Of a stretch of 36,464 nt of DNA, positions 2 through 25,560 are shown piece after piece. A model generated the notes under the pieces. That model was given only the letters and a program-made list of their open reading frames with translations. It had not been told where the DNA came from and did no database searches. Origin of the DNA: a virus; the IMG/VR virus record IMGVR_UViG_3300030419_001823, positions 1-36,464 of that record; one strand, given 5' to 3'. The translations under genes and the position numbers were made by a program. How positions within the stretch are numbered: the first letter of the stretch is position 1; each line of letters opens with the position of its first letter.

Positions 2-130
2 TGGCGGGAAATTATTAAATTCCAGTGGAAAAAAGGATTTCTATGTCCTGAATGTGGTAGAGCAACCTTAAAATATAAGGGAGAAGATACAGTTGAATGT
101 TCCAAGTGTGGATTCACAGGGAGAGTGTAA
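2..130 (+). CDS. Zinc-ribbon miniprotein, 5' end cut by the window
   Basis: The frame is open from base 2 to the TAA at 128-130, giving 42 residues. It contains two CxxC knuckles, CPECG (residues 15-19) and CSKCG (33-37), separated by 14 residues, the layout of a small zinc ribbon. Such ribbons bind zinc and often mediate nucleic-acid or protein contact; no specific partner can be named. The visible start reads W-R-E-I-I-K, which matches the N-terminal tag M-x-W-x-x-I-I-K seen on several other proteins here. I infer that only about two or three residues are missing and that the protein is a roughly 45-residue tagged ribbon. It ends 2 bases before the next ATG, so the two are probably translated together. 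Confidence 0.7.
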   Translation, partial: WREIIKFQWKKGFLCPECGRATLKYKGEDTVECSKCGFTGRV

Positions 131-132
131 TT

Positions 133-336
133 ATGACGGATGAAAAAGAAGTTACAGAAAAGATAGAAAAGGCCGAAGATATGGTCGAAGAAGTTTTAGA
201 AGAATTAGAAGATTTAGGATTAGTTGATGAGGCTACTGCGAATAAAATTTTAGCAAAGGTATCACAATACAAACGCTATATTCTATTAGCAGTTCCTGTT
301 GTTATTGCTCTTGTAGCCGCTATTAGTGCGCTATGA
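133..336 (+). CDS. Small C-terminally anchored membrane protein
   Basis: This 67-residue protein starts at the ATG at 133, just after the zinc-ribbon stop. An upstream in-frame ATG at 97 lies inside the zinc-ribbon gene and is unlikely. Residues 1-45 are very acidic and helical, with heptad-like spacing. Residues 48-67 are a continuous hydrophobic segment (ILLAVPVVIALVAAISAL) preceded by K-R, a single membrane span at the extreme C-terminus. The layout is that of a tail-anchored protein with its soluble part in the cytoplasm. Position before the packaging genes suggests a late-expressed protein. A holin-like or membrane-docking role is possible but not shown. No family recognised. Confidence 0.75.
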   Translation: MTDEKEVTEKIEKAEDMVEEVLEELEDLGLVDEATANKILAKVSQYKRYILLAVPVVIALVAAISAL

Positions 337-346
337 GGGTGATAAT

Positions 347-2074
347 ATGGTTAGACCTATTGCATGGAGAGATGTAATTCGGCGGGGAACTAAAGAATTA
401 CAAGCAGTAGAACCAAAGATAGCAAAAGATGAGAAAATATTATTAAGTTATTTAAAGGCATTTAAGGAGGCACTTTCTGAAGTGCAATCTGAAGGCCAAG
501 TTAAAAATACATTAGTAGTAAGTGCTTTAGGGACTAATACTAATGAAGAAAAACTACAAGAATTTATTTCTATCTTGGATAAAAAACTACAAGGTAGTGA
601 TTTAGGAAAGGGTAAAGAAAAACTACAAAATATTCTAAAAGAGTTTGAAACTAAACCAATAGCATTTACAGATTTAGTTGATTTTTATAAACGAAATGAA
701 GCAATAGCCGAAACTGTTTTTGGTGAAGTAGAGTTTGATAAAGATAAAATTATTGAGTCTTTGGAAGGTATATTAAAAAGACCTAATATAAATGTTAGTA
801 GTATTAAAGCAGTAAGTGAAGCATTAGGTTTATGGGAAAGCCTATCTATATATGAGTCACCTTCTAAAGATTATGACGTAGTTTCATTTACTGAGTTTAA
901 AGATGTTATGCAGGATAGTTATACTACCCCTAAAAGATTTAAAGAATTACTTAAGAATCTTAAAAAAGCAGGGTGGTTAGAACCACCATTAACTAGGTAT
1001 GAACCTAAACAAAGTCTTCAACAAAACGTAGGAGATATAGCAACTGCATCAAGAATGCCCATACACGCGTTATATGAAAGAATGAAACAGTTTAATGATA
1101 GAGTAAATATTTTCGCAAAGGGAAGAGTAAAAATGTATAAAGGTAGTAAACAAGGAGTAGGTAGAAATCCTATAATTGCTAAATATAGAGTTTATGCCGC
1201 GTGGAAAACCAGTGTAAAAAACTGGAATAAGAACTATCCTAATTTAAAAAGAAGTCCTAATGAGGCCAAAATAGAAGAAGATAAAATAGTAAATTCTTTA
1301 ATATCCAAAGAACAAAACGAATTAAAACAATTTGAAGACTGGGACACTAGTAAGTTTGGTACAAGTGTAGAAACAGAAATAAATATAGAAAAAGATATAG
1401 GTTCTTTAGCGTCAAATCTATTTAGTGATAATATTAATTACGCGAGAATATTTTTAATCGCATTCCCCGAAGAACAAGAATCAGATAATAATTTTAATTA
1501 TTTATTTAGTTATGATTTACCAGAAAATCTATCTGAATTAAATTTAGATATAGTGTTAGAGGTAATATTTACTATGATGGCTGACTTTAATATAAATGTT
1601 GAAAAATATGATTCGCAATTAAATGTGATAAGAGAAAGAATACTTAATGCAGATGAAAATAATATGTTTAGTTATGAAAATAATAATTTACAATATAGTA
1701 CAGGAGGGATAGAAGCAGTTAACTGGGAGGATGATATTCAAGATATTACAGGGTTAATAGACAACTTTATAACTGATTTAGGTTCTGACCTACAATTACT
1801 GGGTAATAATATATGCGAAGAAATACACGCGACTATTCTACAAAATATTAATAAAAAAACTAGTCGCTCTTTTGGAATTAATAGATATAGACCATATTCA
1901 ATATCTGAAGAAGCAGAAGCAGCCGGTATGGGTAAAAAAACACCTAAAGGAGAAACCAAGCAAAAAGAAAGGGATAAGGGAACAATACAAGAATACTTAT
2001 CAACTTATCATATACCATTAGAATCAGGAACTAAAGAAACAGCAAATATAATAGTGAGGAAGATAGATGGATAA
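347..2074 (+). CDS. Large unknown protein (575 aa) with N-terminal W-x-x-I tag
   Basis: The start is the ATG at 347, preceded by GGGTGATAAT; an in-frame ATG at 326 overlaps the preceding gene and lacks such a site. No family is recognised. The N-terminus contains I-A-W-R-D-V-I-R-R, a version of the tag found on several proteins here. The rest looks mainly helical and is rich in Lys, Glu, Asn and Ile. A basic stretch around residues 255-310 (many Lys/Arg with Trp and Tyr) could contact nucleic acid. The C-terminal part (about 530-555) is Lys/Gly-rich and looks disordered. It overlaps the next gene by 8 bases. Its place upstream of terminase suggests a head-associated or internal virion protein, but that is inference. 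Confidence 0.85.
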   Translation: MVRPIAWRDVIRRGTKELQAVEPKIAKDEKILLSYLKAFKEALSEVQSEGQVKNTLVVSALGTNTNEEKLQEFISILDKKLQGSDLGKGKEKLQNILKEFETKPIAFTDLVDFYKRNEAIAETVFGEVEFDKDKIIESLEGILKRPNINVSSIKAVSEALGLWESLSIYESPSKDYDVVSFTEFKDVMQDSYTTPKRFKELLKNLKKAGWLEPPLTRYEPKQSLQQNVGDIATASRMPIHALYERMKQFNDRVNIFAKGRVKMYKGSKQGVGRNPIIAKYRVYAAWKTSVKNWNKNYPNLKRSPNEAKIEEDKIVNSLISKEQNELKQFEDWDTSKFGTSVETEINIEKDIGSLASNLFSDNINYARIFLIAFPEEQESDNNFNYLFSYDLPENLSELNLDIVLEVIFTMMADFNINVEKYDSQLNVIRERILNADENNMFSYENNNLQYSTGGIEAVNWEDDIQDITGLIDNFITDLGSDLQLLGNNICEEIHATILQNINKKTSRSFGINRYRPYSISEEAEAAGMGKKTPKGETKQKERDKGTIQEYLSTYHIPLESGTKETANIIVRKIDG

Positions 2075-4613
2075 CGACTTAATTAATTTAATTAATAGGT
2101 ACTGGTCTTTTTTAGCCAGTAATAGAACTGAAAGGGCAGAAACCCAATTAATCAGAATAGCGAAACACGGAGGCGCTGATGATGATATTACGGCAGAAAA
2201 TGAAGCACCCTATATCGAAGCGGCCTTAGCAGATTTAAAAGAGCAAAGAGAAATATTTATTGATTATTTTACAAGTCGTATTACAATAAAAAGAGGTGAT
2301 GTAATAACAACGCTTGACGAATCACATATACCCAAATCTTATTCATATAATGCATTATCTAGTAGGTACGATAATATAGATACAGCAGATTTTGATTTAC
2401 CTTCTAGACAAATAGATAGACTTAAGGCTAGAGCAGAACGAGCATTTACAGCAACAGTAAGTCCAGAAACACTTAGCACTCAATATCAAGTATTTACAGA
2501 TGAAGAGGAACGCGTATTTAATGAAATTATTAATTCGGTGGGAATAGATGTATTAGATATTGATGTGGATTTTACAGAATTAGTTCAAAAAGTTACAACA
2601 AAACGAGCCACCTCTTTAGCAAATAGGAGAGCAACCTATACCTATTGGGGTAAAGTAAATCAAATATACGAAGCATTTATTGATGGATTAAATGATAATC
2701 CTCAATTATTATATAAATTACACGAATCAGGTGTTAGAAATGTACCTAATTATATTATACAAAGTCCACCTGTATCTTTTAAACAGGCAGTTAATCCCAA
2801 ACACATTATAATTAAACAACTTTTAACGGCAAGAATATTAGGAACTAAACTAAGTTCTAAATTAGAGTCTTTAGAATTAGGTACTCAATATTCTAAAATA
2901 GACCCCGATACTAATAGACCAGTAGTAGAAGGTACTCTTGATAGCGCATACGATAAGGTAACTGAAATAGATGAGTTACTAGAAGATATATCTAGGGGTG
3001 ATATATCTAATAACCCAGATGCATTTGAACCTAGTGAACCAATTGACCCATTATTAGCAATTATATTACAACATGAGGAATTACCTGTTGTTCTTAAGAG
3101 AGAAGAAATACAGAAACATGTAGAATCAATAGTAGCAGATTTAGAAATTCAGGCTGGAGAATATCTAGAACATTTAGCAGAAGAGTTAGAAGGCTTAAAA
3201 GAAGATTTAGGTCATAATTTAGAATTGTATGCTCCAGTAGATATGGATAGATATTATTTTGCTATAATGGATGGCGAAGGAATAAACGTTAATAAGTTTA
3301 AATTACATGCTGAAGGTAATTCGTTTATAGTGGGTATGGGAGAAATACAAGTTATAAGTCAAGAAGCAGAAGAAGCACAAATTTCTCTAGCCAATCAACA
3401 ATTTATAGATTATCAAGAAGCGGTAGATTTTATAAATGAAAATACAACTAAATTAATGAAGGCATTAGCAAATACTATTTACCAAATTCCTGCTTGGGGA
3501 AGAACCTTTTCTGAACCTAGTAAAAGAACTGCTAAACCACATGAAACTGTTACTGATGAGGAAGAAAGAGGAATTTCTTATGAATTACCTCCTTTAGCAA
3601 GACCACCAAGTACCAGTCGTTCCAAATATGGAGGAACTCTTGCTCCAACCTATTCACCAACACAAGAATATGAAGTGCCTGATAACTTAAACACTATAAC
3701 TACATTACTAAATAAGTATTATTATAGGGCTTTGGTAGGTCAGAATATAATATATGATGATTTACCAAACTTTGTTAAAAAACCAGCCTACGCAGGTTTA
3801 CAACGAAATATATCTAAAGACCCAGTAAATAAACTTATTAGGGAAATATATTCTGGAACTCATAGACCTACTTTTAATGATGAAAGTTTTAAAGCAATTT
3901 CAAACTTTGTAGATATATTAAATAGAGGAATTTCTAAATGGAGTCCGGATATTAGTAATAATTTTAGTGAATTTACAGAATCTATTATTAGGTTATTTAC
4001 TGTTTTACCTGATAATGAATTACGCCAATTGAATAAGAATTTAAATATTTATTTAGGCGCAATATTATTTGATATTTGGAATAGAACGAGGGGTGAAGAA
4101 GAAAATGAACCTAGTTATCAGGGTAGGTCGTTAAGTAAGTGGGCTAATGATTATGCTGTTGAAGGTAGTGGCGAAATTAGTTTAATAAATATTGCTAGAC
4201 TATTTCAAGATGAACGCTTTAAACAATATATAATTAGCGAAGAATCTACTGATTTTACTGAAAGTGAACATAAGACGTTTATAAATAAAATCTATGGTCG
4301 TTCAGGTATTGTTGCTAATTTACTTAGAGCATCTAAGAAATATAAATTAACATCCTACAATAGAGCAGTATTAGATTCTTTAGATATTATACGCAAACAA
4401 AATAATTTACCTGTATACAAAGGTCAATTAGATGTAGATTCCTATGACGATATGGTCTATACTATTAGTAAAATAAAAACATATCATGGGGTAGATGTTT
4501 TTGCTTCAGATGTAAATATGATTGTTAAAAGCGACACTACAATAAAACAATTAGTTAGTACGATGGGATTACCCGACGAAATTATTTATCACATAAGGGG
4601 ACTATTTAGATGA
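2067..4613 (+). CDS. Very large unknown protein (848 aa)
   Basis: The ATG at 2067 overlaps the end of the 575-residue protein and follows a GTGAGGA ribosome-binding site. I recognise no family. The protein is long, acidic and mainly helical, with Glu/Leu-rich probable coiled-coil stretches around residues 345-400, where E, L and K recur with heptad-like spacing. A Pro/Ser/Thr-rich segment near residues 500-540 (PPLARPPSTSRSKYGG and neighbours) looks like a flexible linker separating two folded halves. There are no cysteine clusters, nucleotide-binding loops or membrane spans that I can see. It overlaps the acetyltransferase gene by 4 bases, so coupled translation is likely. A structural or ejected internal protein would fit the size and place. 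Confidence 0.85.
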   Translation: MDNDLINLINRYWSFLASNRTERAETQLIRIAKHGGADDDITAENEAPYIEAALADLKEQREIFIDYFTSRITIKRGDVITTLDESHIPKSYSYNALSSRYDNIDTADFDLPSRQIDRLKARAERAFTATVSPETLSTQYQVFTDEEERVFNEIINSVGIDVLDIDVDFTELVQKVTTKRATSLANRRATYTYWGKVNQIYEAFIDGLNDNPQLLYKLHESGVRNVPNYIIQSPPVSFKQAVNPKHIIIKQLLTARILGTKLSSKLESLELGTQYSKIDPDTNRPVVEGTLDSAYDKVTEIDELLEDISRGDISNNPDAFEPSEPIDPLLAIILQHEELPVVLKREEIQKHVESIVADLEIQAGEYLEHLAEELEGLKEDLGHNLELYAPVDMDRYYFAIMDGEGINVNKFKLHAEGNSFIVGMGEIQVISQEAEEAQISLANQQFIDYQEAVDFINENTTKLMKALANTIYQIPAWGRTFSEPSKRTAKPHETVTDEEERGISYELPPLARPPSTSRSKYGGTLAPTYSPTQEYEVPDNLNTITTLLNKYYYRALVGQNIIYDDLPNFVKKPAYAGLQRNISKDPVNKLIREIYSGTHRPTFNDESFKAISNFVDILNRGISKWSPDISNNFSEFTESIIRLFTVLPDNELRQLNKNLNIYLGAILFDIWNRTRGEEENEPSYQGRSLSKWANDYAVEGSGEISLINIARLFQDERFKQYIISEESTDFTESEHKTFINKIYGRSGIVANLLRASKKYKLTSYNRAVLDSLDIIRKQNNLPVYKGQLDVDSYDDMVYTISKIKTYHGVDVFASDVNMIVKSDTTIKQLVSTMGLPDEIIYHIRGLFR

Positions 4614-5158
4614 AATATAAAATAGATACAGATAAAATTTATAGTGAGTCAGAATTAATAAGTCTTTGGGAAAAACAAGGAAAGGTAAGAACACCTAGAG
4701 TTGAAAGTAAATGGTTATCACCGCTTGCTGCAAAAACTCTTACTGGTGCAATTATAGCACAAGATGAAAAGGGAAATGTATTAGCCCACACTGGTTGGAT
4801 TGACTTAGAAGATAATTTAGTATTAACTGGGGGAGTATTTGTTCCTGTAAGTAATGAAAGAAAGGGATTAGGTACTGCCTTATTACACGCTAGAGATAAA
4901 TTATTTGAAGATAAAGGAGTATTAAGTGTTACCACTAACCCTTCACCTTTTTGGATAGCAAAGGTTAGTAAATTATATCCTCTTGTTAAAAAACTAACAA
5001 GTATTCCTGAAAAATATAGAGAGCAGGTAAAAGATGCATTAAAGCACTATAAAGGAATTAAAAGAAAAGATGGAACAATAGTTAACGCTAAAGTTTTTTA
5101 CAGACCACCTAAAAATAAACCTATGAAGAAGGCATGGAGTATCATCAAGAAGGAGTGA
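4610..5158 (+). CDS. GNAT-family N-acetyltransferase
   Basis: The 182-residue product has the acetyl-CoA pyrophosphate loop of the GNAT fold at residues 84-90 (R-K-G-L-G-T-A, matching R/Q-x-x-G-x-G/A) followed by a helix (ALLHARDKLFE). It is preceded by two strand-like segments (AAKTLTGAIIAQ; NLVLTGGVFVPV). The last third is basic and extends beyond the core. GNAT enzymes transfer acetyl from acetyl-CoA to an amine; the substrate cannot be read from the sequence. The 4-base overlap with the upstream gene and 4-base gap to terminase place it in the late operon, so a virion protein or a host translation or defence factor could be the target. Family assignment is fairly firm, substrate unknown. 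Confidence 0.8.
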   Translation: MKYKIDTDKIYSESELISLWEKQGKVRTPRVESKWLSPLAAKTLTGAIIAQDEKGNVLAHTGWIDLEDNLVLTGGVFVPVSNERKGLGTALLHARDKLFEDKGVLSVTTNPSPFWIAKVSKLYPLVKKLTSIPEKYREQVKDALKHYKGIKRKDGTIVNAKVFYRPPKNKPMKKAWSIIKKE

Positions 5159-5162
5159 TGAT

Positions 5163-6584
5163 ATGACTAATCTATTACACGAAATGGACTTAAAGATGTC
5201 CGATGGTAATTTTGAATATTTTTTTACTAAGGTATTAGGATATGAAATGGCCCCATTCCATAAAGAATGGTTAGAAGAAGTAAAGACTGGTAATCGCACA
5301 GTTATTATTTGTAGTCGTGACCACGGAAAATCTGTTTTCTTTCATTCTTGGTGTGTATATCAATTAATATTTCAAGAGCCTCCGTATCAAATGCTTTACA
5401 TTTCTTCTAACCATAAACAGACTATGGTACATATGAAAGATATTGATAGAATGTTTACTAATAATGAAGTAATAAAAAAATTTAAACCTAAAGCGGGATG
5501 GGCCGTAGGTGCTATGCGCTTAACAAACGGAAATGAAATACTTGAGCGTTCCGTTGGTTCACAGATTCGTGGACTTCACCCTCAAGAAATTATTATTGAC
5601 GACCCACTAAAAGAGTTTTCAATGAATGCTATTCAACGCGTAACTGATTGGTTTTGGGGTGATATGATACCTACTCTTCACCATACAGCCGCCCTTAGAA
5701 TGGTTGGTACGCCATTTACTTATACAGATATATTTTCACAACTATCAGAAAATCCTGCATATGATGTTAAAAGATACCCTGCTATTAATCAAGCAGGAGA
5801 AGCATTATGGCCGGGTCGGTGGGATAAAGATAAATTAGAACAAAGAAAAATGGAAATTGGTTCTAGTAAATTTACAAGAGAATATTTATGTATTCCTATT
5901 AGTACTAATACAATGTTATTCGACCCTGAACATGTAGAGGCTTGTAAAGATAGAGATGCAGTTTTAACTTCTATGCGTACATCAGATGACCTAACTTATT
6001 TTATTGGTTATGACCCAGCAATATCGGCAAATGGTGATTGGACTGTTATGACCGTATTAGAAGTTGATGAGGATATGAATAAAAAAATAGTACAGATATT
6101 TAGAGCGCAGGGATTAGATTTTAGAGAACATATTATGCATATCATGGACTTGTGTAGAAGGTATCAACCAGAAACAGTTATGATTGAAACAAATACTTTC
6201 GCTAAAGCCTTCGCTATGGAACTTAAAAATATAAGTGATTTTCCGGTAAGAGAATTTACTATGAGTCGCAAAAAGAAACAAGAAATTATTCTTAATCTAC
6301 AAATGAATATAGATAATCATAAAATAATATTCCCTTATGGTAACGAGGAATCTATATCAGTTTGTAGGCAATTAATACAGGAACTAGAAGCCTTTGGAAT
6401 TAATCATAATGGAAAGATAGAAGGAGTAGGTGCTCATGATGATATGGTTATATCTTTAGCATTGGCTAATTACGCTACTAAAAGATATTCAGATTCATTT
6501 ACATTAATAGATGATGAGGGAATCTTTAATAATGGCCCTCCTTCTGTACCATTTATAGGAGGTGGAATATATGGTGTTAATTAA
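5163..6584 (+). CDS. terL: Terminase large subunit (packaging ATPase/nuclease)
   Basis: This motor protein docks on the portal, pumps DNA into the prohead with ATP and cuts the genome. The 473-residue protein has both domains. ATPase: Walker A C-S-R-D-H-G-K-S at residues 50-57, Walker B I-I-I-D-D-P at 143-148, coupling motif V-G-T-P-F at 181-185. RNase H-like nuclease: first Asp in I-G-Y-D-P (D284), Glu in M-I-E-T-N (E342), final Asp pair in A-H-D-D-M-V (426-427). All key acidic residues are present, so it should be active. The start follows AAGGAGTGATGAT. No small terminase subunit is recognisable nearby. The 3' end overlaps the endonuclease gene by 14 bases. Confidence 0.97.
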   Translation: MTNLLHEMDLKMSDGNFEYFFTKVLGYEMAPFHKEWLEEVKTGNRTVIICSRDHGKSVFFHSWCVYQLIFQEPPYQMLYISSNHKQTMVHMKDIDRMFTNNEVIKKFKPKAGWAVGAMRLTNGNEILERSVGSQIRGLHPQEIIIDDPLKEFSMNAIQRVTDWFWGDMIPTLHHTAALRMVGTPFTYTDIFSQLSENPAYDVKRYPAINQAGEALWPGRWDKDKLEQRKMEIGSSKFTREYLCIPISTNTMLFDPEHVEACKDRDAVLTSMRTSDDLTYFIGYDPAISANGDWTVMTVLEVDEDMNKKIVQIFRAQGLDFREHIMHIMDLCRRYQPETVMIETNTFAKAFAMELKNISDFPVREFTMSRKKKQEIILNLQMNIDNHKIIFPYGNEESISVCRQLIQELEAFGINHNGKIEGVGAHDDMVISLALANYATKRYSDSFTLIDDEGIFNNGPPSVPFIGGGIYGVN

Positions 6585-7947
6585 GGTCGACACAGAAGAA
6601 GTTAGAGAAAAACTTGAAGAGATAGAATCTATTCGAGAAGAAACTGAAACTGAATTAGAACCAGTAGTTAATGAATTACGTCAGTCGTTAAATAAATCAG
6701 AAGTAGATACTTGGTTAGATATGCAATCTAATAATGAATTAGAAATTATTAAATCAATTTCTACATTATGTAAAATAAATTTAACCGAGGCTATGGAATT
6801 AATACCTACATATCCTAGTTCCCCAATTGTAGGAGAACAGCAATTACCCGACTTAGTAAAAGAAATGAGAAACATACGTAGGGGTCTTAAAGGAAACCAC
6901 CGTGAAAGTATTGCTAAGGGGATTGACCATCTTATTACTGCTTATCAAGAATATATTAATAAATGTATAAAATCTATATATTGGTTAAGACCATATAGAA
7001 GTCCTTTATTAGATATTAATTTATCCGAATCAAAAATTAAAAAGTTATACTCTATTAAAGATGGAGAACGTAGAGAAATTATAATTGATAATTTATGTAA
7101 GATGTGGAATGCTAAACTAGATAGAAGAAATTTAGATTATGGTTCTGAATATTCTAAATTATCTAAAGAAATTTCAGAAGGTAAAAAGGAAATATCTGGT
7201 ATTTTAAGAGGCATAACACCACAAGAAATTAGAAAAAGTAGAAAGGAATTAATACAAGAAGAGGTATTAGATTTAATTTGTAATAATCCCGGTATTACTT
7301 CATCTACAATATTTGAAAGATTAGACTCAAAATATTCAAGATATACTACGCCTGCTATTATTGCTAAAATGGCTAAAGGTATCGGTGCAACAAAAATCGA
7401 CGACGAATATTATTTAATTAAATCTCTTATTAAAAAGGATTTATATTCTTATGTAGCGGGCTTTATAGATTCAGATGGGTATATAACTATGGATAGTAAA
7501 TTCTCACCGAGAGTAGGTATGGTTGCTACCGGTAATAGAGGTAAGGCATTCTTCACAGAATTAGAGAGTGAACTTAAATGTGGTCGTTTACATTTAGACC
7601 AAAAGGCCGGTGAAAATAATAGAAGCCAACACAGATTAAATTTTTATAGTGCTAATGATATAGGTGTTATACTAGAAAAGTGCATACCTCATCTTAGAAT
7701 GAAAAAATCTCAAGGTAAATTAGTTAGAGAAGCCCTAAGAATAAAAAAGAATCATAAAAAACAACCTTGGGCAAAGGAAAGACTTAATGAGATATTTCAA
7801 TTAATTAAATATGAAAATTGGAAGGATGCTAGGAATAGTTATGAATTAGATAAGTATGGAGTAAATCCCGAAACAGTAGTTAAGTATTTTGATAATTGTA
7901 AAAATAACGTAATGGATGAATTAGAATCTATAATAAAGGAGGAATAA
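6571..7947 (+). CDS. Winged-helix/LAGLIDADG endonuclease-domain protein
   Basis: The 458-residue protein has three parts. Residues 1-220 are helical, charged and unrecognised. Residues 226-284 look like a winged helix (E-E-V-L-D-L-I-C-N-N-P-G-I-T-S-S-T-I-F turn, then a wing ending D-D-E-Y-Y-L). Residues 290-395 form a LAGLIDADG nuclease domain with the signature V-A-G-F-I-D-S-D-G at 295-303, Asp in the metal position. One motif means it should dimerise. The ATG at 6571 is chosen because AGGAGGTG lies 6 bases upstream; a GTG at 6562 would sit inside that site. It overlaps terL and ends 1 base before the portal. It is free-standing, not an intein or visible intron. It may be a homing element or a packaging nuclease. 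Confidence 0.85.
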   Translation: MVLIKVDTEEVREKLEEIESIREETETELEPVVNELRQSLNKSEVDTWLDMQSNNELEIIKSISTLCKINLTEAMELIPTYPSSPIVGEQQLPDLVKEMRNIRRGLKGNHRESIAKGIDHLITAYQEYINKCIKSIYWLRPYRSPLLDINLSESKIKKLYSIKDGERREIIIDNLCKMWNAKLDRRNLDYGSEYSKLSKEISEGKKEISGILRGITPQEIRKSRKELIQEEVLDLICNNPGITSSTIFERLDSKYSRYTTPAIIAKMAKGIGATKIDDEYYLIKSLIKKDLYSYVAGFIDSDGYITMDSKFSPRVGMVATGNRGKAFFTELESELKCGRLHLDQKAGENNRSQHRLNFYSANDIGVILEKCIPHLRMKKSQGKLVREALRIKKNHKKQPWAKERLNEIFQLIKYENWKDARNSYELDKYGVNPETVVKYFDNCKNNVMDELESIIKEE

Positions 7948-7948
7948 T

Positions 7949-9586
7949 ATGGGTATTAGAGATAGTATTAGTAATTTTATAAGAAGAAGAACACCTACAC
8001 CTGCTGATAAAGAAGTGTTCAATTTAGGTATTCAAGAAAGAAAACACCCACAACATTTAGTCGGGCCTATGTTGTATAGTGTCGCAGACCAATCAGTAGT
8101 GGTTAGAACCTGTATAACACAGTTAAAAACAGAAATTTTCCGTAGAGGCTATATGTGGGAAAAGGCATTTTATAAGAAATGTGTTAGTTGCGGAGAGGAA
8201 TTTCAAAAAGATGTAGATGTTTGTAGTTGTGGTTCTAGTACGTTTAGGTCACCCGACCCAAATCAAAAGAAATATGCTGAAAAAATGATTAATGGTTATG
8301 TAAATAAATCTGACCAATTATTTATTGATATATTAAAAGAAATTGAAACAGATTTAAATATTGCTGATGACGCATACCTTATTTTTGTAAAGGAATACTT
8401 TGTAGATGATTTAGGTAATATTCAACTTCATAAGGTTAAGGAGTTATTTAGAGGTGACCCACTTACTATGTTTATTGATGTTGATGATGACGGTGACCGA
8501 GGTACTTCTCATTATACTTGTATAACACATAGAGAAATATATACAGATGACCCACATGAAACTTGTAGTGAATGTGGTGCTACTTTACACCCTGTTGTTT
8601 ATGTTAATAGAGTACACGGTAAAGACCAATATTATATTGAAGGAGAAGTTGTACATATTAGTAAGTTTAACCCTAGTAGGTTATATGGAAAACCTCCTAT
8701 TCTTACTCTATGGAATCATATTACTACTCTTATCGCTATGGAAACATATATTAACACTTCATATTCAAAGGCTAGAACACCTAAAGGTATCTTAGCAGTT
8801 CAAACAAATAACATGGATTCTTTAATTAGATACTGGAGAGGGGTTAAAGAGAAGTTAGAAAAAGACCCACATTATATTCCTATTATGGGTATTGAAACCG
8901 AAGCCGGTGGAAGGGGAGATGTTAAGTGGGTTCCATTTATGCAAAGCCTAAAGGAAATGGATTATTCAGCAGTTAAGGATGACCTTAGACAAAGAATAGG
9001 TGCGTTTTATGGAGTATCTAATATTTTCCAAGCAGATTCTTCTGCCGGTAGTGGATTAAATAATGAAGGTTTACAAATTACAGTTACCAATCGTACAGTT
9101 GAACTAGCACAAAATGTTTATAATAAATATTTATTTCCTTTCCTAGAAAAGCAATTCGGTGTTACAGATTGGAATATTAGATTATTACGTTCAGAAGAAG
9201 AAGATGAAACTCATGCTTTGAGGCGACGAGAAGTAGAAGTAGCATTAGCAGGACAAATGAAAAACTTAGGATTTGAAGTTGATATGGATGAAGATGGAAA
9301 TTTCATATATAAAAAGGTAGTTAAGCCCGAAGAACAAGTTGGGGGAGCAAAACCCGAAGGTGAAGAAGGATTAATAGAAGCAGACCCTTATGCCGGAACA
9401 GATGTTGATGCTAGTAGAGTAGGTCAAATGCAAGCACAATTACTTAGTGGTGCTATGAATCAACCAGTACAAACACAAGGTAGAGGTAATACAAGTAGTA
9501 AGGCTTTACAATTAGCAAATAGAAATACGGGTTCTCCCGCAGGAACAGCAAATGAAAATGTAGATAGGAGGACTGAAACACGATGA
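7949..9586 (+). CDS. Portal protein with two cysteine-cluster insertions
   Basis: The portal forms the dodecameric ring at one head vertex through which DNA passes. This 545-residue protein follows an AAAGGAGG site and the terminase region. Portal features include the stretch around residues 225-260 (V-V-H-I-S-K-F-N-P, Y-G-K-P-P-I-L), the stem-helix region, and a segment near 345-380 (D-D-L-R-Q-R-I-G-A-F-Y-G-V-S then N-N-E-G-L-Q) typical of portals. Unusually it carries two cysteine groups: C78, C81, C92, C94, and C191, H194, C206, C209, both likely zinc sites. The last 100 residues are Gly/Gln/Asn-rich and probably disordered. It overlaps the next ORF by 4 bases. Confidence 0.9.
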   Translation: MGIRDSISNFIRRRTPTPADKEVFNLGIQERKHPQHLVGPMLYSVADQSVVVRTCITQLKTEIFRRGYMWEKAFYKKCVSCGEEFQKDVDVCSCGSSTFRSPDPNQKKYAEKMINGYVNKSDQLFIDILKEIETDLNIADDAYLIFVKEYFVDDLGNIQLHKVKELFRGDPLTMFIDVDDDGDRGTSHYTCITHREIYTDDPHETCSECGATLHPVVYVNRVHGKDQYYIEGEVVHISKFNPSRLYGKPPILTLWNHITTLIAMETYINTSYSKARTPKGILAVQTNNMDSLIRYWRGVKEKLEKDPHYIPIMGIETEAGGRGDVKWVPFMQSLKEMDYSAVKDDLRQRIGAFYGVSNIFQADSSAGSGLNNEGLQITVTNRTVELAQNVYNKYLFPFLEKQFGVTDWNIRLLRSEEEDETHALRRREVEVALAGQMKNLGFEVDMDEDGNFIYKKVVKPEEQVGGAKPEGEEGLIEADPYAGTDVDASRVGQMQAQLLSGAMNQPVQTQGRGNTSSKALQLANRNTGSPAGTANENVDRRTETR

Positions 9587-9762
9587 ATTGGAACTTTTGG
9601 AAATATTTAATCACTATTGATTATAATGATATGGATGATGATTCAATTATGACTTTATATCTTAATTTAAAGAGAAATGCCGTAGAGAGTGAAGATATAA
9701 AAATGTTAAATGAGTTTAGGGAAGAATTAGAACAAAGAGGATTAAGTAATAACGAGGTGTAA
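9583..9762 (+). CDS. Small tagged unknown protein (59 aa)
   Basis: This short gene starts with ATG overlapping the portal stop (ATGA) and ends 2 bases before the next ATG. It begins M-N-W-N-F-W-K-Y-L-I, a looser form of the M-x-W-x-x-I-I-K tag, followed by an acidic turn (D-Y-N-D-M-D-D-D) and a helical second half rich in Glu, Leu and Arg. Codon use resembles its neighbours. No family recognised; the position suggests a portal- or head-associated small protein. Confidence 0.65.
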   Translation: MNWNFWKYLITIDYNDMDDDSIMTLYLNLKRNAVESEDIKMLNEFREELEQRGLSNNEV

Positions 9763-9992: not shown

Positions 9993-12041
9993 ATGGACTG
10001 GGAAGATATTATCAAACGGTTTAAAAGAAAATACCCATTGGTACACACCCCACTAAGTCCAGAAGAAAGACAAAAACTTGAACGAGAACTTGAACAAAGA
10101 CGAAAAGAGAAACTTGAACAAAAACGAAGAACAAATTTTAGGTTACTATCTCGAAAAATATTAAATGATGTAGACGAATTAACTAAAGTAAATCCGGCTT
10201 TCCGAGATAAGGTAAATGAATTTAAAAATGAATTTGAAAATATAGTTAGACAGACATTCCCTAGATATGATACCGCTAAACACACATTGGTCGGAGGTGG
10301 GGGTACTATCAGATTATTTTCCATAGACACTCTATCTAAAGATATTAATAATTTGTTAAAAGTATTTAGTATAACAAATGAAGAAAATAGATTAGAGTTA
10401 GTACTAGAAGTATTAAAGAACCAAATAAATAAAGTATATACAGAAAAGGGAGAAGAAGAACCTTACGATATACAACTTTCAGAACAATTAGAAGAACTAC
10501 GTATTCACCAGTTAGATAATATGTCTCAACCTCAATATGAAAAGTTACTAATTAACATAGGGAGAGCAGAAAGTCAACTGTATCGAACATTAAAAACTAT
10601 TTGGCCCGATGAGAAAAAACCCACAGAAGAAACAGAAGAAACTGAAACAACTCAAACACTTGAAACTGTTCCTAGAAGAGAAAGAATTGTAGAGGCTAAA
10701 AGAACTACAATTGATTGGGAAGGAATAGGTGAAGAGTTAAGAGATAAATTTAGAGATATAGTTAGAATAAATGAATTTCAAAAAGTAGAAGCAACAGACG
10801 CATTAAAAGATGCTTTTGAAAGTATTCTTAGAAGTGAATTAGTAACAGAAGATGAGGAAGGGAAGACAATAAACTTAACACCGGATAGATATTCTAAGTT
10901 ACATTCTTATCCAGACTATGCTAGAGTACATTATTTTATAGAACATATGGTTAGAACATATAAAAAGAATAAAAATAGTATTTATTTACAACCACAGAAA
11001 GCATTTGGTAAAACAGGACTTAATAAAGATGCTAGTTTACTTACTTTAATTATTCGTATTTATCAAAAGTATTATAGTAATACTACTATACCTAGAGTAA
11101 TGTCGTTCCATACTGTTAGTCCAAGAGAACAAACTACTACTAAGATTGAAGAAGAAGATTTTTATGTTATTGACCCAAGAAGCGGTGAAAAGGTATTTGG
11201 TACAGAAGAAATACGACAATTATTTACCGAAGTAGATGACCCTTCAAAAATTAAATATGCAGGGTTCGATATTGCCGGTACACTAAGCGATGATAAAACT
11301 TTTGAAGCATTATCTCCTGAAGAAGCAAAGAGAATTTGGGGTTCTAAACCCCCTCCGGGTGGTAAAATAGTTGAAATAAAAGACATTAATAGTCTAGCAC
11401 AAATGCTAAGAGAAGGTGGTATTCAAACAGATTTAGAAGATGAAGAACAAACTACTCCTAAAACACAAAGAGTATGGCTTAGAGAAAAACCGGAAAAGGC
11501 TGGTACGCATAGTGTTAGTATGGCCCCACCAATAAGACGCAAGGATGAAGATGGAAATTTCATAGAAACAGATGAAGAGTGGGAAAAGAAATTAGATGAA
11601 CATAAGGAAAAAATTAAAAGAATTCGGCAAAGTCAAAGAGAACAGTTAAGTGGCGATAGTAGATTTCAAACCAAAAAATCTTTAGATTTATTATTAAGCG
11701 AATTAGGAATTGATTCAGATACGATTGTAAAAGAGGACACTAGTGAAATTCTTCAAGAATTAAATAAAAAAGATAAACGTTTACTAAAAACTTTATTACA
11801 GTTAGCAAACCCAACAGAATACTTTAATGAAGATGTTCTAAAATTAGGAGAATTAATTACCATGTTAAAATCATTAGGTGTAGTTAACAATAACAAAAAA
11901 CTAAAGAAGAAGGTACTAAAGTACGAAGATGAAAATTTAAATGTAGTTAAAAGGGCGGTTAGACTTCGCCGTGAGTATGAAAAACTATATAAATCAATTA
12001 GAGAAGTCATATACCCAAAGACAGGTGACGATGATGAGTGA
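9993..12041 (+). CDS. Large charged unknown protein (682 aa) with N-terminal tag
   Basis: The start follows AAGGTGATTAA. The N-terminus is M-D-W-E-D-I-I-K-R-F, the clearest case of the recurring tag, followed by a basic region and a strong coiled coil at about residues 22-60 (repeated E-R-E-L-E-Q-R-R-K-type heptads). A Glu/Thr-rich linker lies at 210-225. Just after it, at 240-250, D-W-E-G-I-G-E-E-L looks like an internal tag-like copy. A long Lys/Glu-rich helical region occupies 500-680. No known family, active site or membrane span is visible. It overlaps the next gene by 8 bases. Size, charge and location between portal and protease suggest a core or internal head protein; this is inference. 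Confidence 0.85.
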   Translation: MDWEDIIKRFKRKYPLVHTPLSPEERQKLERELEQRRKEKLEQKRRTNFRLLSRKILNDVDELTKVNPAFRDKVNEFKNEFENIVRQTFPRYDTAKHTLVGGGGTIRLFSIDTLSKDINNLLKVFSITNEENRLELVLEVLKNQINKVYTEKGEEEPYDIQLSEQLEELRIHQLDNMSQPQYEKLLINIGRAESQLYRTLKTIWPDEKKPTEETEETETTQTLETVPRRERIVEAKRTTIDWEGIGEELRDKFRDIVRINEFQKVEATDALKDAFESILRSELVTEDEEGKTINLTPDRYSKLHSYPDYARVHYFIEHMVRTYKKNKNSIYLQPQKAFGKTGLNKDASLLTLIIRIYQKYYSNTTIPRVMSFHTVSPREQTTTKIEEEDFYVIDPRSGEKVFGTEEIRQLFTEVDDPSKIKYAGFDIAGTLSDDKTFEALSPEEAKRIWGSKPPPGGKIVEIKDINSLAQMLREGGIQTDLEDEEQTTPKTQRVWLREKPEKAGTHSVSMAPPIRRKDEDGNFIETDEEWEKKLDEHKEKIKRIRQSQREQLSGDSRFQTKKSLDLLLSELGIDSDTIVKEDTSEILQELNKKDKRLLKTLLQLANPTEYFNEDVLKLGELITMLKSLGVVNNNKKLKKKVLKYEDENLNVVKRAVRLRREYEKLYKSIREVIYPKTGDDDE

Positions 12042-12923: not shown

Positions 12924-13373
12924 GTGCGTTGGACTACTATTTTGAAAATAGATAAATCAGTAAACAATACCGATTATAGAATATTAATGCAAACTTTGTA
13001 TGAAGAATTAAAAAAATGGTTTGAAGCAGAAGGCGTAAAAAAGTTTTTGATGTCTAATGCTGGACTCCAACCTAATCAATTAGAAATGCGTAGTAAATAT
13101 TTAGAATTACCTAGAAACTATACAATAAAAATAGAACATGAAGAATTAGGGAAGCAGGAAACAACAGTACTCATTGATTTTAAATATGCTGATGATGCTA
13201 AAACTCTTAAGGATAGTCCAACCTCAATTATAAAACGTTTTGAATTTATTAAGGGAGATAGAGAACTTTCTAATTTTATTCGACTAGCACTGGAAGAAAT
13301 TAACTTATTAGGTATAGTATATTCAAAAAATGTTATTGACGCTGATGATGGGAGTGACGTATCTACTACGTGA
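12924..13373 (+). CDS. Unknown tagged protein (149 aa), GTG start
   Basis: The start is a GTG at 12924, 5 bases after AGGTGAT. The overlapping ATG at 12922 is out of frame and closes after seven codons. The N-terminus M-R-W-T-T-I-L-K-I-D-K is a clear copy of the recurring tag. The rest looks alpha/beta: two helices (about 17-45), strands at 68-95 (Y-T-I-K-I-E-H; T-T-V-L-I-D-F-K) and a C-terminal helix (I-R-L-A-L-E-E-I-N-L-L). No family recognised. It lies 4 bases upstream of the ligase start, and may be made with it. Confidence 0.75.
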   Translation: MRWTTILKIDKSVNNTDYRILMQTLYEELKKWFEAEGVKKFLMSNAGLQPNQLEMRSKYLELPRNYTIKIEHEELGKQETTVLIDFKYADDAKTLKDSPTSIIKRFEFIKGDRELSNFIRLALEEINLLGIVYSKNVIDADDGSDVSTT

Positions 13374-13377
13374 TAAT

Positions 13378-15494: not shown

Positions 15495-16748
15495 ATGGCT
15501 ACACTAAGCACGAATATGCTTGGCTCTCATTATGGAGCCGGGAGTGAATTAGTTATTCTAAAATCGAATAACCGTGAACCTTTAGTTATTGCTGGATATG
15601 CGTCAGTTGATGTTGTTGATAAACAAAACGACTTAATTACCTTAGATGCTTTAAGGGAGGCTTCTGATGCCTTCATGAAAGGTGATTATAAGAATGTTAT
15701 GATTACACATTCTAATGTACAAGTCGGAGAAGTTATAGACTCATGGACTGATTCTAAAGGTAAAGTACTAAAAACATCTGTTGATGATACAGGGTTATTT
15801 GTAGTTATTAAGTTAAGAGATGATATAGAAAAGGCGAGAGAAGTAGGGCGTGAAATTCGTAGGGGGAATTTACGCTCTTTTAGTATCGGAGGTCAAGCCC
15901 TTCACAAGTCGAATAGATACGACCCCGATATAGGAACATATAAGGAGATAGATAAGTTGGAGTTGCATGAAGTGACTATTTGTGAAGAAGGCATAAACCC
16001 CGAAGCGAAATTTGATATTGTTAAAGAACTAATAAAGGAAGATGATAAAATGTCTGAAGAAATAGCAAAAGCATTAGAAGAATTTAATGAAGTAGTATCT
16101 GCTCTAAGAGAGCAGGTCAATGTTAGGAAAAGTGAAGAAGAGGATGCTGAAATGGAAATGGAAATGATGGAAGCAGAATCGGAAGAAGAAGTGGACCTTA
16201 TGATGGATAAGGCAGAAGGAGAAGAAGAAGATATGGAAATGTTAGACGACGAAGAAGCAAAGGCTGAATCCGTTGTTTATGGGCATAACGAAACAGGACA
16301 ATCCCGAATTGACGGTGCTTTAATGGGTCGTTATTCCGGAGAATTTAAGGACTTTGTAGCAAGAAAGTCTGACTCAATTTCGAGTCTAGACTTAAGTGAG
16401 GAAACTCTCGCTAAGGCTTACGAACAATTTAAGTTAGAAAAAGAAGAAGCACGTGCATATGATGTTATTAAGGAACAGTTTGAAGCACGTTATAATGAAG
16501 AACTAAAGGCTGAATCAGATGCAGTTGCTAAGGCAAAGTATGATGCAGCAGTTGAGGTAGAATCCTTAAAGAAGGAATTCGCAGAATTAAGAAAGTCTCT
16601 AGAGACAAATAACGATGTTATCGCTAAACAAGTAGAATCAGTTGCGGCTGGTCCACAATTAAGCGAAGAAATGGTTATTAAAATGCAGAATGTAGGAGAG
16701 TTATCGTGGGATGAAGTAAATGAACTAGTCCGCGAATTACAGGAGTGA
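15495..16748 (+). CDS. Prohead protease (XkdF-like) fused to scaffold-like domain
   Basis: Residues 30-180 are a prohead serine protease of the XkdF/S78-like type: G-Y-A-S-V-D-V-V-D-K-Q-N-D (34-46), likely catalytic His72 in I-T-H-S-N, likely Ser130 in R-S-F-S-I-G-G, and the closing strand E-L-H-E-V-T-I (156-162). The protease trims head proteins and scaffold during maturation. Residues 186-417 are a scaffold-like part: an extremely acidic Met/Glu stretch (about 215-255) then coiled coil (300-385), ending L-S-W-D-E-V-N-E-L-V-R-E-L-Q-E. An in-frame ATG at 16050 may give the scaffold part alone. It is 5 bases upstream of the capsid gene. Fusion of protease and scaffold is known in tailed phages. 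Confidence 0.9.
   Translation: MATLSTNMLGSHYGAGSELVILKSNNREPLVIAGYASVDVVDKQNDLITLDALREASDAFMKGDYKNVMITHSNVQVGEVIDSWTDSKGKVLKTSVDDTGLFVVIKLRDDIEKAREVGREIRRGNLRSFSIGGQALHKSNRYDPDIGTYKEIDKLELHEVTICEEGINPEAKFDIVKELIKEDDKMSEEIAKALEEFNEVVSALREQVNVRKSEEEDAEMEMEMMEAESEEEVDLMMDKAEGEEEDMEMLDDEEAKAESVVYGHNETGQSRIDGALMGRYSGEFKDFVARKSDSISSLDLSEETLAKAYEQFKLEKEEARAYDVIKEQFEARYNEELKAESDAVAKAKYDAAVEVESLKKEFAELRKSLETNNDVIAKQVESVAAGPQLSEEMVIKMQNVGELSWDEVNELVRELQE
16050..16748 (+). CDS. Possible internally started scaffold protein (nested, in frame)
   Basis: The ATG at 16050 is in frame with the protease gene (codon 186) at the boundary between the protease and the acidic/coiled-coil part. It is preceded by AAAGGAAGATGATAAA, close to the AAGGAGGTGAT-type sites used by genuine starts here. 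It would give a 232-residue scaffold without the protease, as lambda Nu3 is produced from within gene C. The evidence is the site and the domain boundary only. Confidence 0.35.
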   Translation: MSEEIAKALEEFNEVVSALREQVNVRKSEEEDAEMEMEMMEAESEEEVDLMMDKAEGEEEDMEMLDDEEAKAESVVYGHNETGQSRIDGALMGRYSGEFKDFVARKSDSISSLDLSEETLAKAYEQFKLEKEEARAYDVIKEQFEARYNEELKAESDAVAKAKYDAAVEVESLKKEFAELRKSLETNNDVIAKQVESVAAGPQLSEEMVIKMQNVGELSWDEVNELVRELQE

Positions 16749-16753: not shown

Positions 16754-18049
16754 ATGAGCGTAAATACAATTAGAACAATACAGGATTTAGAAAGAGCAAC
16801 CTATGGTGGTGCGGGATATGGACTATTAAAGTCCGCAGGTGTAGAATCTGGAATTCATTCAATTCACGATACTACTACTACTGCGTCTGCTAACCCTAGT
16901 GGACTTTACAATTTAATTTATGGACAAAAAGTTTGGTCAATGCTTAACCGCGAAATTAACGCATTAAGTGTTTTACCTAAGAAACCTTGGAGTTCCTCCG
17001 GTTGGCGTATCTTAAAAGAACGTGCAATTGGTGGTGCTGCTGATGTTTGGAATACTGCTGGTGGAACTGGTCACGGTTCTCTAACAGAAGCAAATATTGG
17101 TGGTGTAGCAGAAAATGCAGCATTTACAACAAGTGCTACTGATGGATTAAGTCCATTGAAGCCTGTATATGATGTAATGTATGCTAGCCCAAAAACCGTT
17201 GCACATCAGTTCGAAATTTCAGAACTTGCTGCTGCTATGGCTAAGATTGATGATGGTATTGGTGATATTATGGCTGCTTACCGTGAAGAAATTGGTGTTT
17301 CTCACGCAGAAGTTATGAATCATATGGCTCTAATGCCTTTAGAATCTCATCTTAGCGGTGGTTCATCAATTAGCGGAATTGGAAATAACTTAACATCTTT
17401 GTATAAGGTTGTTTCTTCATACGCTGAAATTGATGCTATGGATGGTGGAGTAATTCTAACTGGAACTCAAACAGGAAATGCACAATTAATTAATTTGTAT
17501 GGTCATGCTAGAGCATCTTCCGGTGCTGATTGGTTAGACGCATATGTTAATTATGGTTCAAGTTATGCTTCTAGAAGGCCATTAACTCTAAACATTCTTA
17601 ACACAACTTTGCGTGAGTTACAGATTAGAGGCGGTTCTCCAAAGGTTATTCTAACAGGGTATGATACAATTCAAGCCCTCGGTGAATTACTACAATCCCA
17701 AGAAAGATTCATGGGAAGAACTGAAATTCTACCTACACATAATGGTGTTCGTGGTGTAAAGGGTCGAGAAGTTGGTTTCAAGGTTGCTACTTACCATGAT
17801 ATTCCTATTATTCCTTGTAAGGATATGGGAAGTACTGGTTCTGGAAGCGGTCTATCGGATATTTTTATCCTAGATACTGACCATCTTTTCCTATGTACGC
17901 TAAAACCAACTGAATACTTCGAGGGAGGTATTGATTCTGGTGACCCATTCGGTGTTGGAAAACTTGGAAACCGAGGTATGTATAGAACAATTGCTGAATT
18001 AGTTTGTACTTTCTTTAAAGGACAAGGTAAGATTACAAACCTATCGTGA
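16754..18049 (+). CDS. Major capsid protein, HK97 fold
   Basis: This 431-residue protein should form the head shell. The place directly after the protease/scaffold, the AGGAGTGATATAA site and a more C-ending, apparently expression-tuned codon mix (frequent AAC, TTC, CGT) all fit the most abundant virion protein. Sequence features of the HK97 fold include the late A-domain/P-domain stretch V-A-T-Y-H-D-I-P-I-I-P (about 348-358) and the following strands I-F-I-L-D-T-D-H-L-F-L (373-383). A helix in the middle (A-A-Y-R-E-E-I-G-V-S-H-A) corresponds to the spine region. Little distinguishes a cleavable N-terminal delta domain; the first 50 residues are loose and Gly/Thr-rich and may be the N-arm. 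Confidence 0.92.
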   Translation: MSVNTIRTIQDLERATYGGAGYGLLKSAGVESGIHSIHDTTTTASANPSGLYNLIYGQKVWSMLNREINALSVLPKKPWSSSGWRILKERAIGGAADVWNTAGGTGHGSLTEANIGGVAENAAFTTSATDGLSPLKPVYDVMYASPKTVAHQFEISELAAAMAKIDDGIGDIMAAYREEIGVSHAEVMNHMALMPLESHLSGGSSISGIGNNLTSLYKVVSSYAEIDAMDGGVILTGTQTGNAQLINLYGHARASSGADWLDAYVNYGSSYASRRPLTLNILNTTLRELQIRGGSPKVILTGYDTIQALGELLQSQERFMGRTEILPTHNGVRGVKGREVGFKVATYHDIPIIPCKDMGSTGSGSGLSDIFILDTDHLFLCTLKPTEYFEGGIDSGDPFGVGKLGNRGMYRTIAELVCTFFKGQGKITNLS

Positions 18050-19673: not shown

Positions 19674-19677
19674 ATCT

Positions 19678-24008: not shown

Positions 24009-24009
24009 T

Positions 24010-24732
24010 ATGTGGTATAATATAATTAAACAAGATAATTTTAATTATCATATACCTCTTTCGGCTTATGGAGATGAAGTAGTGACCGAATTTAGTAATT
24101 TTTCTATGGGGTTTACTGATTCATTGCATCCTTTAAGAGAACTACTGAAAGACCCCGTTATTAAAAAACGTAGAAATAAATTATTTAGGAAGTTAGTTAA
24201 TGCAATATTTTATAAAATTTATAGTGAGATAATTAATAGTTTAGAAATTGGTACAGAAATCAGAAAAGATGAATTTTATGAGAAAGCCTTTCTAGAAACG
24301 AGAAAATATACAATTACTTATGATAAAGTTCAATTTAGGGGTAGGAGTAAAAAACTTGGAATTCTAACAGGAAGATTTGATTTAAATACATTTGTAACTA
24401 TGAAAGGTAAAAACATCAGATGGGAATCATATATTAAATATTCACCTAGAACTTCACCAATCCCAATATCGGATTTAGTACGAAGTGGTTATATTGAATC
24501 ATTGAGTGCGACCGATGCGGGTCTTGGAGAAACCCATAGAAAAGAAACTGGTATAGGTGTTCAAACTTATGGAAGAAAAATGAGAACATTAGAAAGAGTG
24601 GCTTATAATTCATTTATTATAAGAAGACATATTCCTGACTCTTTATATTTAGATAAATTAAGACCATTTATGGGTAGCACAGCACCAGCACCAACAAATA
24701 GGAGTGGAACAATATGGACAGTAAAAGATTAA
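24010..24732 (+). CDS. Tagged neck-region protein (240 aa)
   Basis: I prefer the ATG at 24010, preceded by AGTGATTAAT, over a GTG at 24001 inside the preceding gene. The product begins M-W-Y-N-I-I-K-Q-D-N, a copy of the recurring tag. A basic helical region follows (about 50-80: K-K-R-R-N-K-L-F-R-K-L), then beta-rich sequence (Y-T-I-T-Y-D-K-V-Q-F; G-R-F-D-L-N-T-F-V). Position after the connector would suit a head-closure or tail-completion protein, but I see no decisive family motif. Confidence 0.8.
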   Translation: MWYNIIKQDNFNYHIPLSAYGDEVVTEFSNFSMGFTDSLHPLRELLKDPVIKKRRNKLFRKLVNAIFYKIYSEIINSLEIGTEIRKDEFYEKAFLETRKYTITYDKVQFRGRSKKLGILTGRFDLNTFVTMKGKNIRWESYIKYSPRTSPIPISDLVRSGYIESLSATDAGLGETHRKETGIGVQTYGRKMRTLERVAYNSFIIRRHIPDSLYLDKLRPFMGSTAPAPTNRSGTIWTVKD

Positions 24733-24887
24733 ATATGTTAAGTAATTCACTTCCGACGATAGTTAATAATATTATAGAGGTCGAAGAAATGAGTATTGAA
24801 TTATTAGGTGCTAGTATGAGTTCAGAAATTGTGGAAAAGTTAATAAGTGATACAATTATTAAAGAAATAATAGAGGCGATGAATTAA
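24714..24887 (+). CDS. Small helical protein (57 aa)
   Basis: The ATG at 24714, after AGGAGTGGAA, overlaps the previous gene by 19 bases, and the TAA shares its last A with the next ATG (24887). The product is all-helical and leucine/isoleucine-rich, with a pattern of acidic patches (I-I-E-V-E-E-M; I-V-E-K-L-I-S-D). No family recognised. The tight overlaps on both sides and good ribosome-binding site support it as real. Confidence 0.65.
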   Translation: MDSKRLNMLSNSLPTIVNNIIEVEEMSIELLGASMSSEIVEKLISDTIIKEIIEAMN

Positions 24888-25246
24888 TGAGTTGGGAAAC
24901 AATACTTAAGGTAAGAATGGCTGTAAATTTAGCAGCATTTAAAGATGCAGTTAAACAAGTTGGGGATAGTTATGAGGCAGGTAGTGTGATTGATTTTACT
25001 AGTAGGGGCTACGATGTGGAAGAATTTTTAGATAAAGGAATGAATTTATATAATGAACTTACTATGGTCGAAGGAATTCACCCAATAACCGGAGAACCCA
25101 CATATTCAAGAAGAACGAGTCACTCTAAAAAAGTATTTTCTATGAATGCTCTTTCTGGTAGGCAAAGAGTAATAACAAGTGTTTTATTGAGAAATGGTTG
25201 GGAAAAAATAGCCCCTATGTCTAAAACTATTTTAAGGAAGGTGTAA
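24887..25246 (+). CDS. Tagged small protein, paralogue 1 (119 aa)
   Basis: The ATG overlaps the previous stop by one base. The protein begins M-S-W-E-T-I-L-K-V-R and ends G-R-Q-R-V-I-T-S-V-L-L-R-N-G-W with about 15 residues more. It aligns along its whole length with the next protein: same tag, a helix containing a K-x-[AS]-[VI] step, the strand [VT]-I-D-[FL]-T, a second helix, then the G-R-x-[RK]-V-I-T-S and N-G-W blocks. The region between helix and G-R block is about 15 residues longer here (H-P-I-T-G-E-P-T-Y-S). The basic G-R-V-I-T-S end could bind DNA or a partner. Function unknown. Confidence 0.8.
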   Translation: MSWETILKVRMAVNLAAFKDAVKQVGDSYEAGSVIDFTSRGYDVEEFLDKGMNLYNELTMVEGIHPITGEPTYSRRTSHSKKVFSMNALSGRQRVITSVLLRNGWEKIAPMSKTILRKV

Positions 25247-25248
25247 TA

Positions 25249-25560
25249 ATGAGTTGGAAGAATATAATTAAATCACGAAGAAGAATAGATTTTCCTGCTT
25301 TAAAACAATCAATTATAGAAGCAGCAGAATCTTTTCCTGTTGATACTACTATTGATTTAACTGCTATGGATATGCAAGCAAGAACATTTTTAGAAAGAGC
25401 ACAAAAAATATATGCTAATTCAACTAGTTGGGGTCATGCTAGAAGAGTATTTGACCCATATGGTATTCGTGGTAGGTCGAAAGTAATTACATCAACATTA
25501 CAAAATAATGGTTGGGATTTAGTACATAACAAATCAAAAATTTTAACTAAGGTGGTGTAA
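25249..25560 (+). CDS. Tagged small protein, paralogue 2 (103 aa)
   Basis: The ATG follows AAGGAAGGTGTAAT, two bases after the paralogue's stop. It starts M-S-W-K-N-I-I-K-S-R and ends G-R-S-K-V-I-T-S-T-L-Q-N-N-G-W plus 16 residues, matching the upstream protein. The identity is modest and concentrated at the two ends and at T-I-D-L-T, so the duplication is old and the two copies have probably specialised. It lies directly before the tail terminator candidate, overlapping it by one base. Confidence 0.8.
   Translation: MSWKNIIKSRRRIDFPALKQSIIEAAESFPVDTTIDLTAMDMQARTFLERAQKIYANSTSWGHARRVFDPYGIRGRSKVITSTLQNNGWDLVHNKSKILTKVV

Follow-up and report, generated by a model that had tools for sequence, protein, structure and literature searches.

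In phage T4, internal proteins carry a 10-residue N-terminal propeptide that serves as their targeting signal and is itself processed (PMC9026906). For the T4 internal protein IPIII, the first ten residues suffice for targeting, with residues 4 and 7 key for targeting and residues 8 and 10 for processing (PMC9026906). An N-terminal signal is also enough to load a reporter into the head of phage P1, as found for DarB (PMC9024508), and in HK97 the cut in the capsid protein gp5, at K103/S104, falls where the shell is unstructured (PMC10275583). Here, we describe a short N-terminal tag, M-x-W-x-x-I-L-K, in a 36,464-base stretch of viral DNA (IMG/VR record IMGVR_UViG_3300030419_001823; hereafter, the window) and in the relatives of this virus. 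The tag is carried by more than 100 otherwise unrelated late proteins of a large group of ocean archaeal viruses and is most likely an address that loads the virus head.

The tag resembles the T4 capsid targeting sequence, present on IPI, IPII, IPIII and Alt, in being a short N-terminal peptide (10-19 residues in T4) on different late proteins. A second likeness is the combination of targeting and processing in one peptide with a charged residue before the cut, which is known for T4 (PMC9026906) and proposed here. By contrast, gp21 of T4 cuts after Glu at L/I-x-E, whereas our proposal involves Trp, an Ile-Leu pair, Lys and an S78 protease; the logo of the tag contains no L/I-x-E pattern, and the motif ends in Lys rather than Glu. 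T4 has three IP proteins and Alt in its core, whereas the genomes studied here, from an archaeal virus lineage, each encode 9-18 strictly tagged proteins. Because both sequence and cleavage motif differ, we do not claim that the tag belongs to the T4 family of targeting sequences. The DarB signal embodies the same idea of N-terminal head loading that we propose here, but BLAST found no consensus among the Dar proteins, whereas a strict consensus stands on more than 100 bodies in this lineage. HK97 gp4 and gp5 provide a related S78 protease domain and a cut preceded by Lys, situated in a flexible capsid protein arm, the place at which we propose a site here. We know of no tagged internal cargo in HK97. 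Encapsulin cargo-loading peptides, which are short and load varied cargo into an HK97-fold shell, differ in that they are usually C-terminal, uncleaved and non-viral. No paper on capsid-targeting signals of magroviruses or other archaeal viruses turned up in full-text searches of the open-licence literature.

A preliminary description of the window, made from its sequence, had listed the tag at eight N-termini. All eight sites were found (Table 1), and seven of them fit the pattern W-x-x-[IVL]-[ILV]-[KR]. Across the 34 window genes (12,101 residues) this pattern has seven matches, every one within the first dozen residues of its protein, and no internal match was found in these proteins. When residues 2-31 of each protein were permuted, the mean was 0.037 tags and the maximum two in 20,000 shuffles, compared with the seven seen. 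The eighth, looser site, in the gene at 9583, is probably a genuine tag in decayed form, because a similar gene at a similar position in the relative L004 begins MNWQDILK. Relatives of the protein encoded at 12924 start with MDWKIILK or MDWKLILK. The preliminary description had also held that the bodies behind the tags are unrelated apart from the last two, and this was borne out: once the tag was removed, only the products of genes 24887 and 25249 were alike (27% identity, E = 2e-12), the next best pair having E = 0.07.

The tag was then analyzed in eight near-complete relatives of 84-96 kb with 1,046 called genes; gene starts are calls made in this analysis rather than annotations, and most relatives of the window are fragments. 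The strict tag was present on 111 genes, 9-18 per genome. Every one of them is on the same strand as the head genes, which holds 527 of the 1,046 genes overall (Fisher P = 1.6e-36). The motif was enriched at the relatives' N-termini, with 112 tags as counted for the shuffle test against a shuffled mean of 0.89. In a motif-free approach, genes were anchored on Trp alone at position 2 or 3 and the consensus was then read off. Late-strand genes with such a Trp numbered 143, where about 14 were expected, and the consensus that emerged from them was M-[STN]-W-[KE]-[DN]-I-L-K. Information peaks at the Lys (2.43 bits) and drops to 0.67, 0.45 and 0.13 bits over the next three positions. This Lys is present in 118 of the 143 genes and replaced by Arg in three (P = 2e-19 against the background K:R). 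The tag of the preliminary description is thus real and much better supported than sequence reading had been able to show, although its consensus of [IL] before the Lys needs adjusting in that Leu, not Ile, is the commonest residue there in the relatives. On the opposite strand of the eight genomes, 26 genes have Trp at position 2 or 3 and none is tagged; several of them are one family, with TEKYRP after the Trp. In a looser class of tags (MSWEDTLKA, MKWEEYLKS, MNWKDTLQKK, MTWKDEIKK), the first I gives way to T, Y or E, which shows that no other core residue is so readily replaced. Within the tag, each of the six Leu and three Ile codons occurs, and codon usage for K, D and E is close to that of the genome as a whole. 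This free variation in codon use argues that selection acts on the protein and not on the DNA. Separately, a 182-residue window protein (4610-5158) has W-S-I-I-K close to its C-terminus (ending AWSIIKKE), and similar C-terminal ends occur in proteins of G003 and G004 (AWDIIKGR) and in G011 and G014. C-terminal copies of the tag were, however, not convincingly over chance in the relatives (four against 1.35 expected) and were set aside.

After the tag was cut off, 204 distinct tagged proteins formed 118 clusters, 87 of them singletons. In IMG/VR, two relatives were found for the 682-residue window protein encoded at 9993 and none for the product of gene 24887, compared with 479 for the capsid protein. 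Body matches among the tagged proteins include GNAT, PAP2 phosphatase, zinc fingers and SUKH, and many bodies are small, basic or zinc-binding. The core head and tail proteins (portal, capsid protein, tape measure and the products of genes 25560 and 26214) lack the tag. Two families of bodies were also found in other phages. Every DUF5754 member here is tagged, strictly or loosely, and DUF5754 is 70-80% identical to a segment of the untagged cyanophage protein T4-GC119, which is annotated as structural in S-E7 and S-P4, whereas an earlier paper calls it no more than hypothetical. For a 'HiPIP'-like family, the tag is present in all eight members here versus none of four homologues in four unrelated bacterial phages; in one of those phages the 'HiPIP'-like sequence is a domain of a protein encoded beside a capsid maturation protease. 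Since homologues of both families exist elsewhere without it, the tag is an add-on to pre-existing bodies. Collectively, these data reveal a conserved, modular tag on unrelated bodies that is selected at the protein level and confined to the morphogenesis strand, lending support to the earlier idea of a sorting tag.

We also searched blindly, running the DNA pattern for M-[ST]-W-[KE]-D-I-L-K alone across 2.9 million viral contigs. At least 120 stretches matched, whereas two scrambled-order patterns using the same codons gave two each. Of 50 matching records that were inspected, 36 contained the same capsid protein and three more the portal; five of the others had between one and eight called tags in the sequence analyzed, and about six look like chance. 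Because these records mostly carry the capsid protein, portal or tags of the lineage, the tag is nearly private to it.

The window (32.6% guanine plus cytosine) encodes a terminase, portal, S78 prohead protease, SU10-type capsid protein and tape measure. The PF04586 catalytic domain of the protease scores 48.5 bits against a cut-off of 21. In annotated phage records, the capsid protein and portal match tailed archaeal viruses only, those of the Druskaviridae best, at 21-28% identity. In the related contigs, which are 84-96 kb long and in some cases possibly incomplete, the genes form two opposed blocks; a thermosome is encoded in 7 of 12 records of relatives, and PolB together with a class II ribonucleotide reductase in one related contig among those examined. 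Magrovirales are viruses associated with marine Poseidoniales (PMC10768690, PMC12999244) that have genomes of 90-110 kb, opposed replication and morphogenesis blocks, PolB and kinship with Druskaviridae, and a chaperonin is an auxiliary gene in the family Aoguangviridae (PMC10768690). The relatives of the window share with Magrovirales (Aoguangviridae, Apasviridae) a size of about 90 kb, the opposed blocks, PolB and the relation to Druskaviridae, and the thermosome of some records may correspond to the chaperonin gene. We infer that the window is Magrovirales-like at the level of the order, which agrees with its original description as an archaeal virus.

Based on these sequences, we propose that M-(x)-W-x-x-I-L-K is an N-terminal address on late accessory 'cargo' proteins of Magrovirales-like tailed archaeal viruses, with a probability of roughly 0.6. 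Late expression of the tagged genes is presumed because they share strand and gene order with the head genes. In our model, a tagged protein would attach to the procapsid during assembly through its Trp and two aliphatic residues, with the scaffold, the capsid protein or the portal interior as docking site, a step that we favor about as strongly as the address itself. The head would take up many different tagged proteins, which would probably enter the host along with the DNA. Cleavage after the tag Lys by the S78 prohead protease would follow, as in the HK97 capsid protein. In this scheme, targeting would fall to the Trp and the aliphatic pair and processing to Leu-Lys. Head loading as in T4, first raised in the preliminary description, is the hypothesis that best fits the sequences.

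Cleavage after the Lys is the weaker half of the proposal, and we put it forward tentatively. It is suggested by the sharp stop of conservation at the Lys and by a matching [IL]-[LIM]-K in the N-terminal arm of the capsid protein. This arm varies in length, and [IVL]-[LIM]-K is kept in 69 of 71 relatives, with a conservation of 3.82 at the site versus 1.79 in its flanks. Similarly, all 54 complete capsid N-termini have [ILV]-[LIM]-K 5-9 residues past TYG, and in many of them the residue directly preceding it is D or N. This retained motif and the cut at K103/S104 in HK97 gp5 led us to propose that the S78 protease may cut after the Lys of the capsid arm as well as after that of the tags. Two further candidate sites, [IL]-[IL]-K at the N-terminus of the protease and [IV]-[VLI]-K where its catalytic domain ends, were dropped, since the S78 fold can explain both; HK97 gp4 has TEIK and AAMK at those two fold positions. 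An apparent enrichment of 'prohead protease substrate' motifs in the scaffold half of the protease (70 vs 25) was also rejected, as the excess is largely one conserved fold position. The most far-reaching version of the model is a lineage-wide address-and-cleavage code by which 10-20 or more interchangeable proteins per genome would be packed and delivered to the host, and which would have evolved independently of the T4 signal. We consider this version somewhat more doubtful than cleavage itself.

Several observations weigh against the model. With the protease copies explicable by the S78 fold, the capsid protein site is the only one that supports a shared cleavage motif. In addition, the HK97 site has TFN before its Lys rather than aliphatic residues as here, and the residue that follows the Lys is K, R, A, N or E in the tags versus Q, A, G or S in the capsid protein. 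The head regions of Druskaviridae, haloarchaeal relatives with homologous head proteins, contain no tag. We found no virion proteomics of these uncultured viruses and no experimental placement of a tagged protein in a virion. Finally, structure prediction of the capsid protein reached a predicted local distance difference test score of 43 and was not used.

The main rival explanation is that the tag docks another late viral or host partner, such as a virus-factory, membrane or transcription component, and that the tagged proteins do their work inside the cell, late in infection, instead of being packaged. This explanation is compatible with a short motif that looks like an address and stands on late-strand proteins of unrelated sequence, and with the bodies that match enzyme or regulator families such as GNAT, PAP2 phosphatase, zinc fingers and SUKH. 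However, T4 packages enzymes too (Alt; PMC9026906), the DUF5754 body recurs in a cyanophage protein whose annotation is structural, and both the restriction to the morphogenesis strand and the parallel in the capsid arm fit the virion better. Accordingly, we regard docking to another partner as unlikely. Less probable again is that the tag marks decoration or connector proteins on the head exterior, neck or tail rather than internal cargo. Three window tags do occupy the interval from the head-tail adaptor gene (22920) to the tail genes, and the preliminary description had allowed for loading into the neck. That option is weakened by the variability of the post-adaptor slot, in which many relatives have no tagged gene, and the conserved head and tail genes are untagged. 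Small, basic or zinc-binding bodies are also frequent among the tagged proteins.

The tag could also be a functionless N-terminal coding segment spread by recombination or duplication. Near-identical ribosome-binding leaders (e.g. GGAGAGATTACAATG) occur in a few neighboring genes, 5% of tagged versus 1% of other late-strand genes. These leader-plus-tag cassettes in adjacent genes, together with tandem tagged paralogues, suggest a route by which the tag spread. By contrast, conservation that ends at the Lys, the strong preference for Lys over Arg and a motif that outlasts the divergence of codons and bodies argue that the tag is maintained by selection, making spread without function very unlikely. 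A nucleic-acid signal (a translation enhancer or late mRNA element) that incidentally encodes the motif would account for tags exactly at the start codon and for the shared leaders but is largely refuted by the codon use and by a comparison of tagged with other late-strand genes, in which no upstream element specific to tagged genes was found besides the ribosome-binding site.

If head loading is correct, a one-line rule would mark the nameless late proteins of abundant marine archaeal viruses, more than 100 clusters of them, as predicted virion cargo. Protein loading into heads would extend past T4 and P1 to archaeal viruses, and the short peptide and its protease would be open to expression tests that require neither virus nor host culture.

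Table 1 Tag sites and head genes in the window.
Feature	Position	Strand	Details
Tag WREIIK, 42-residue zinc-ribbon protein	2..19	+	Gene 2-130, start codon beyond window edge; zinc ribbon by Pfam
Tag WRDVIR, 575-residue protein	365..382	+	Gene 347-2074, ATG at 347
Portal protein, untagged, core	7949..9586	+	PHROG 18178, 2.3e-65
Probable decayed tag WKYLIT in MNWNFWKYLIT	9598..9615	+	Gene 9583-9762
Tag MDWEDIIK, 682-residue protein	9993..10016	+	Gene 9993-12041
Tag V(M)RWTTILK, 149-residue protein	12924..12947	+	Gene 12924-13373, GTG start
S78 prohead protease, acidic scaffold-like C-terminal half	15495..16748	+	Pfam PF04586, 1.4e-12; PHROG head maturation protease
Major capsid protein, SU10-like	16754..18049	+	Closest to Druskaviridae
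YGLLKS in capsid protein N-terminal arm (K26/S27), candidate protease site	16817..16834	+	[IL]-[LIM]-K in common with tag
Tag MWYNIIK, 240-residue protein	24010..24030	+	Gene 24010-24732, variable slot downstream of head-tail adaptor gene
Tag MSWETILK, 119-residue protein	24887..24910	+	Gene 24887-25246
Tag MSWKNIIK, 103-residue protein	25249..25272	+	Gene 25249-25560, paralogue of 24887

A search for the host in bacterial and archaeal genomes yielded only contaminating contigs in marine metagenome-assembled genomes. Four contigs of the lineage (L245-L248) are binned into GTDB metagenome-assembled genomes named Altibacter and Maricaulis, probably through binning contamination. The IMG/VR record G030 (L143; 184,733 bases) is probably two joined genomes, because some 91 kb separate the two distinct capsid protein genes found in it. 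In both G016 and G017 (L004 and L006), the portal match reads through an in-frame TAA.

Elsewhere in the window, a module of about 60 residues (roughly GxFxASANTFTRTSG...ITNAADSGNNATVTI...LTLSAVDADETGDEITI) was recognized by eye in several structural proteins (18062-18622, 26214-28802 and 33311-36463), the last of which holds it twice. A 461-residue protein encoded between terminase and portal (6562-7947) has a weak PHROG match to HNH endonucleases, and an ATP-dependent DNA ligase (13330-15462) is encoded between portal and protease, within the head gene block. Finally, two short genes (28868-29472) precede the tape measure gene, in the usual position of tail assembly chaperones, and may be a frameshift pair.

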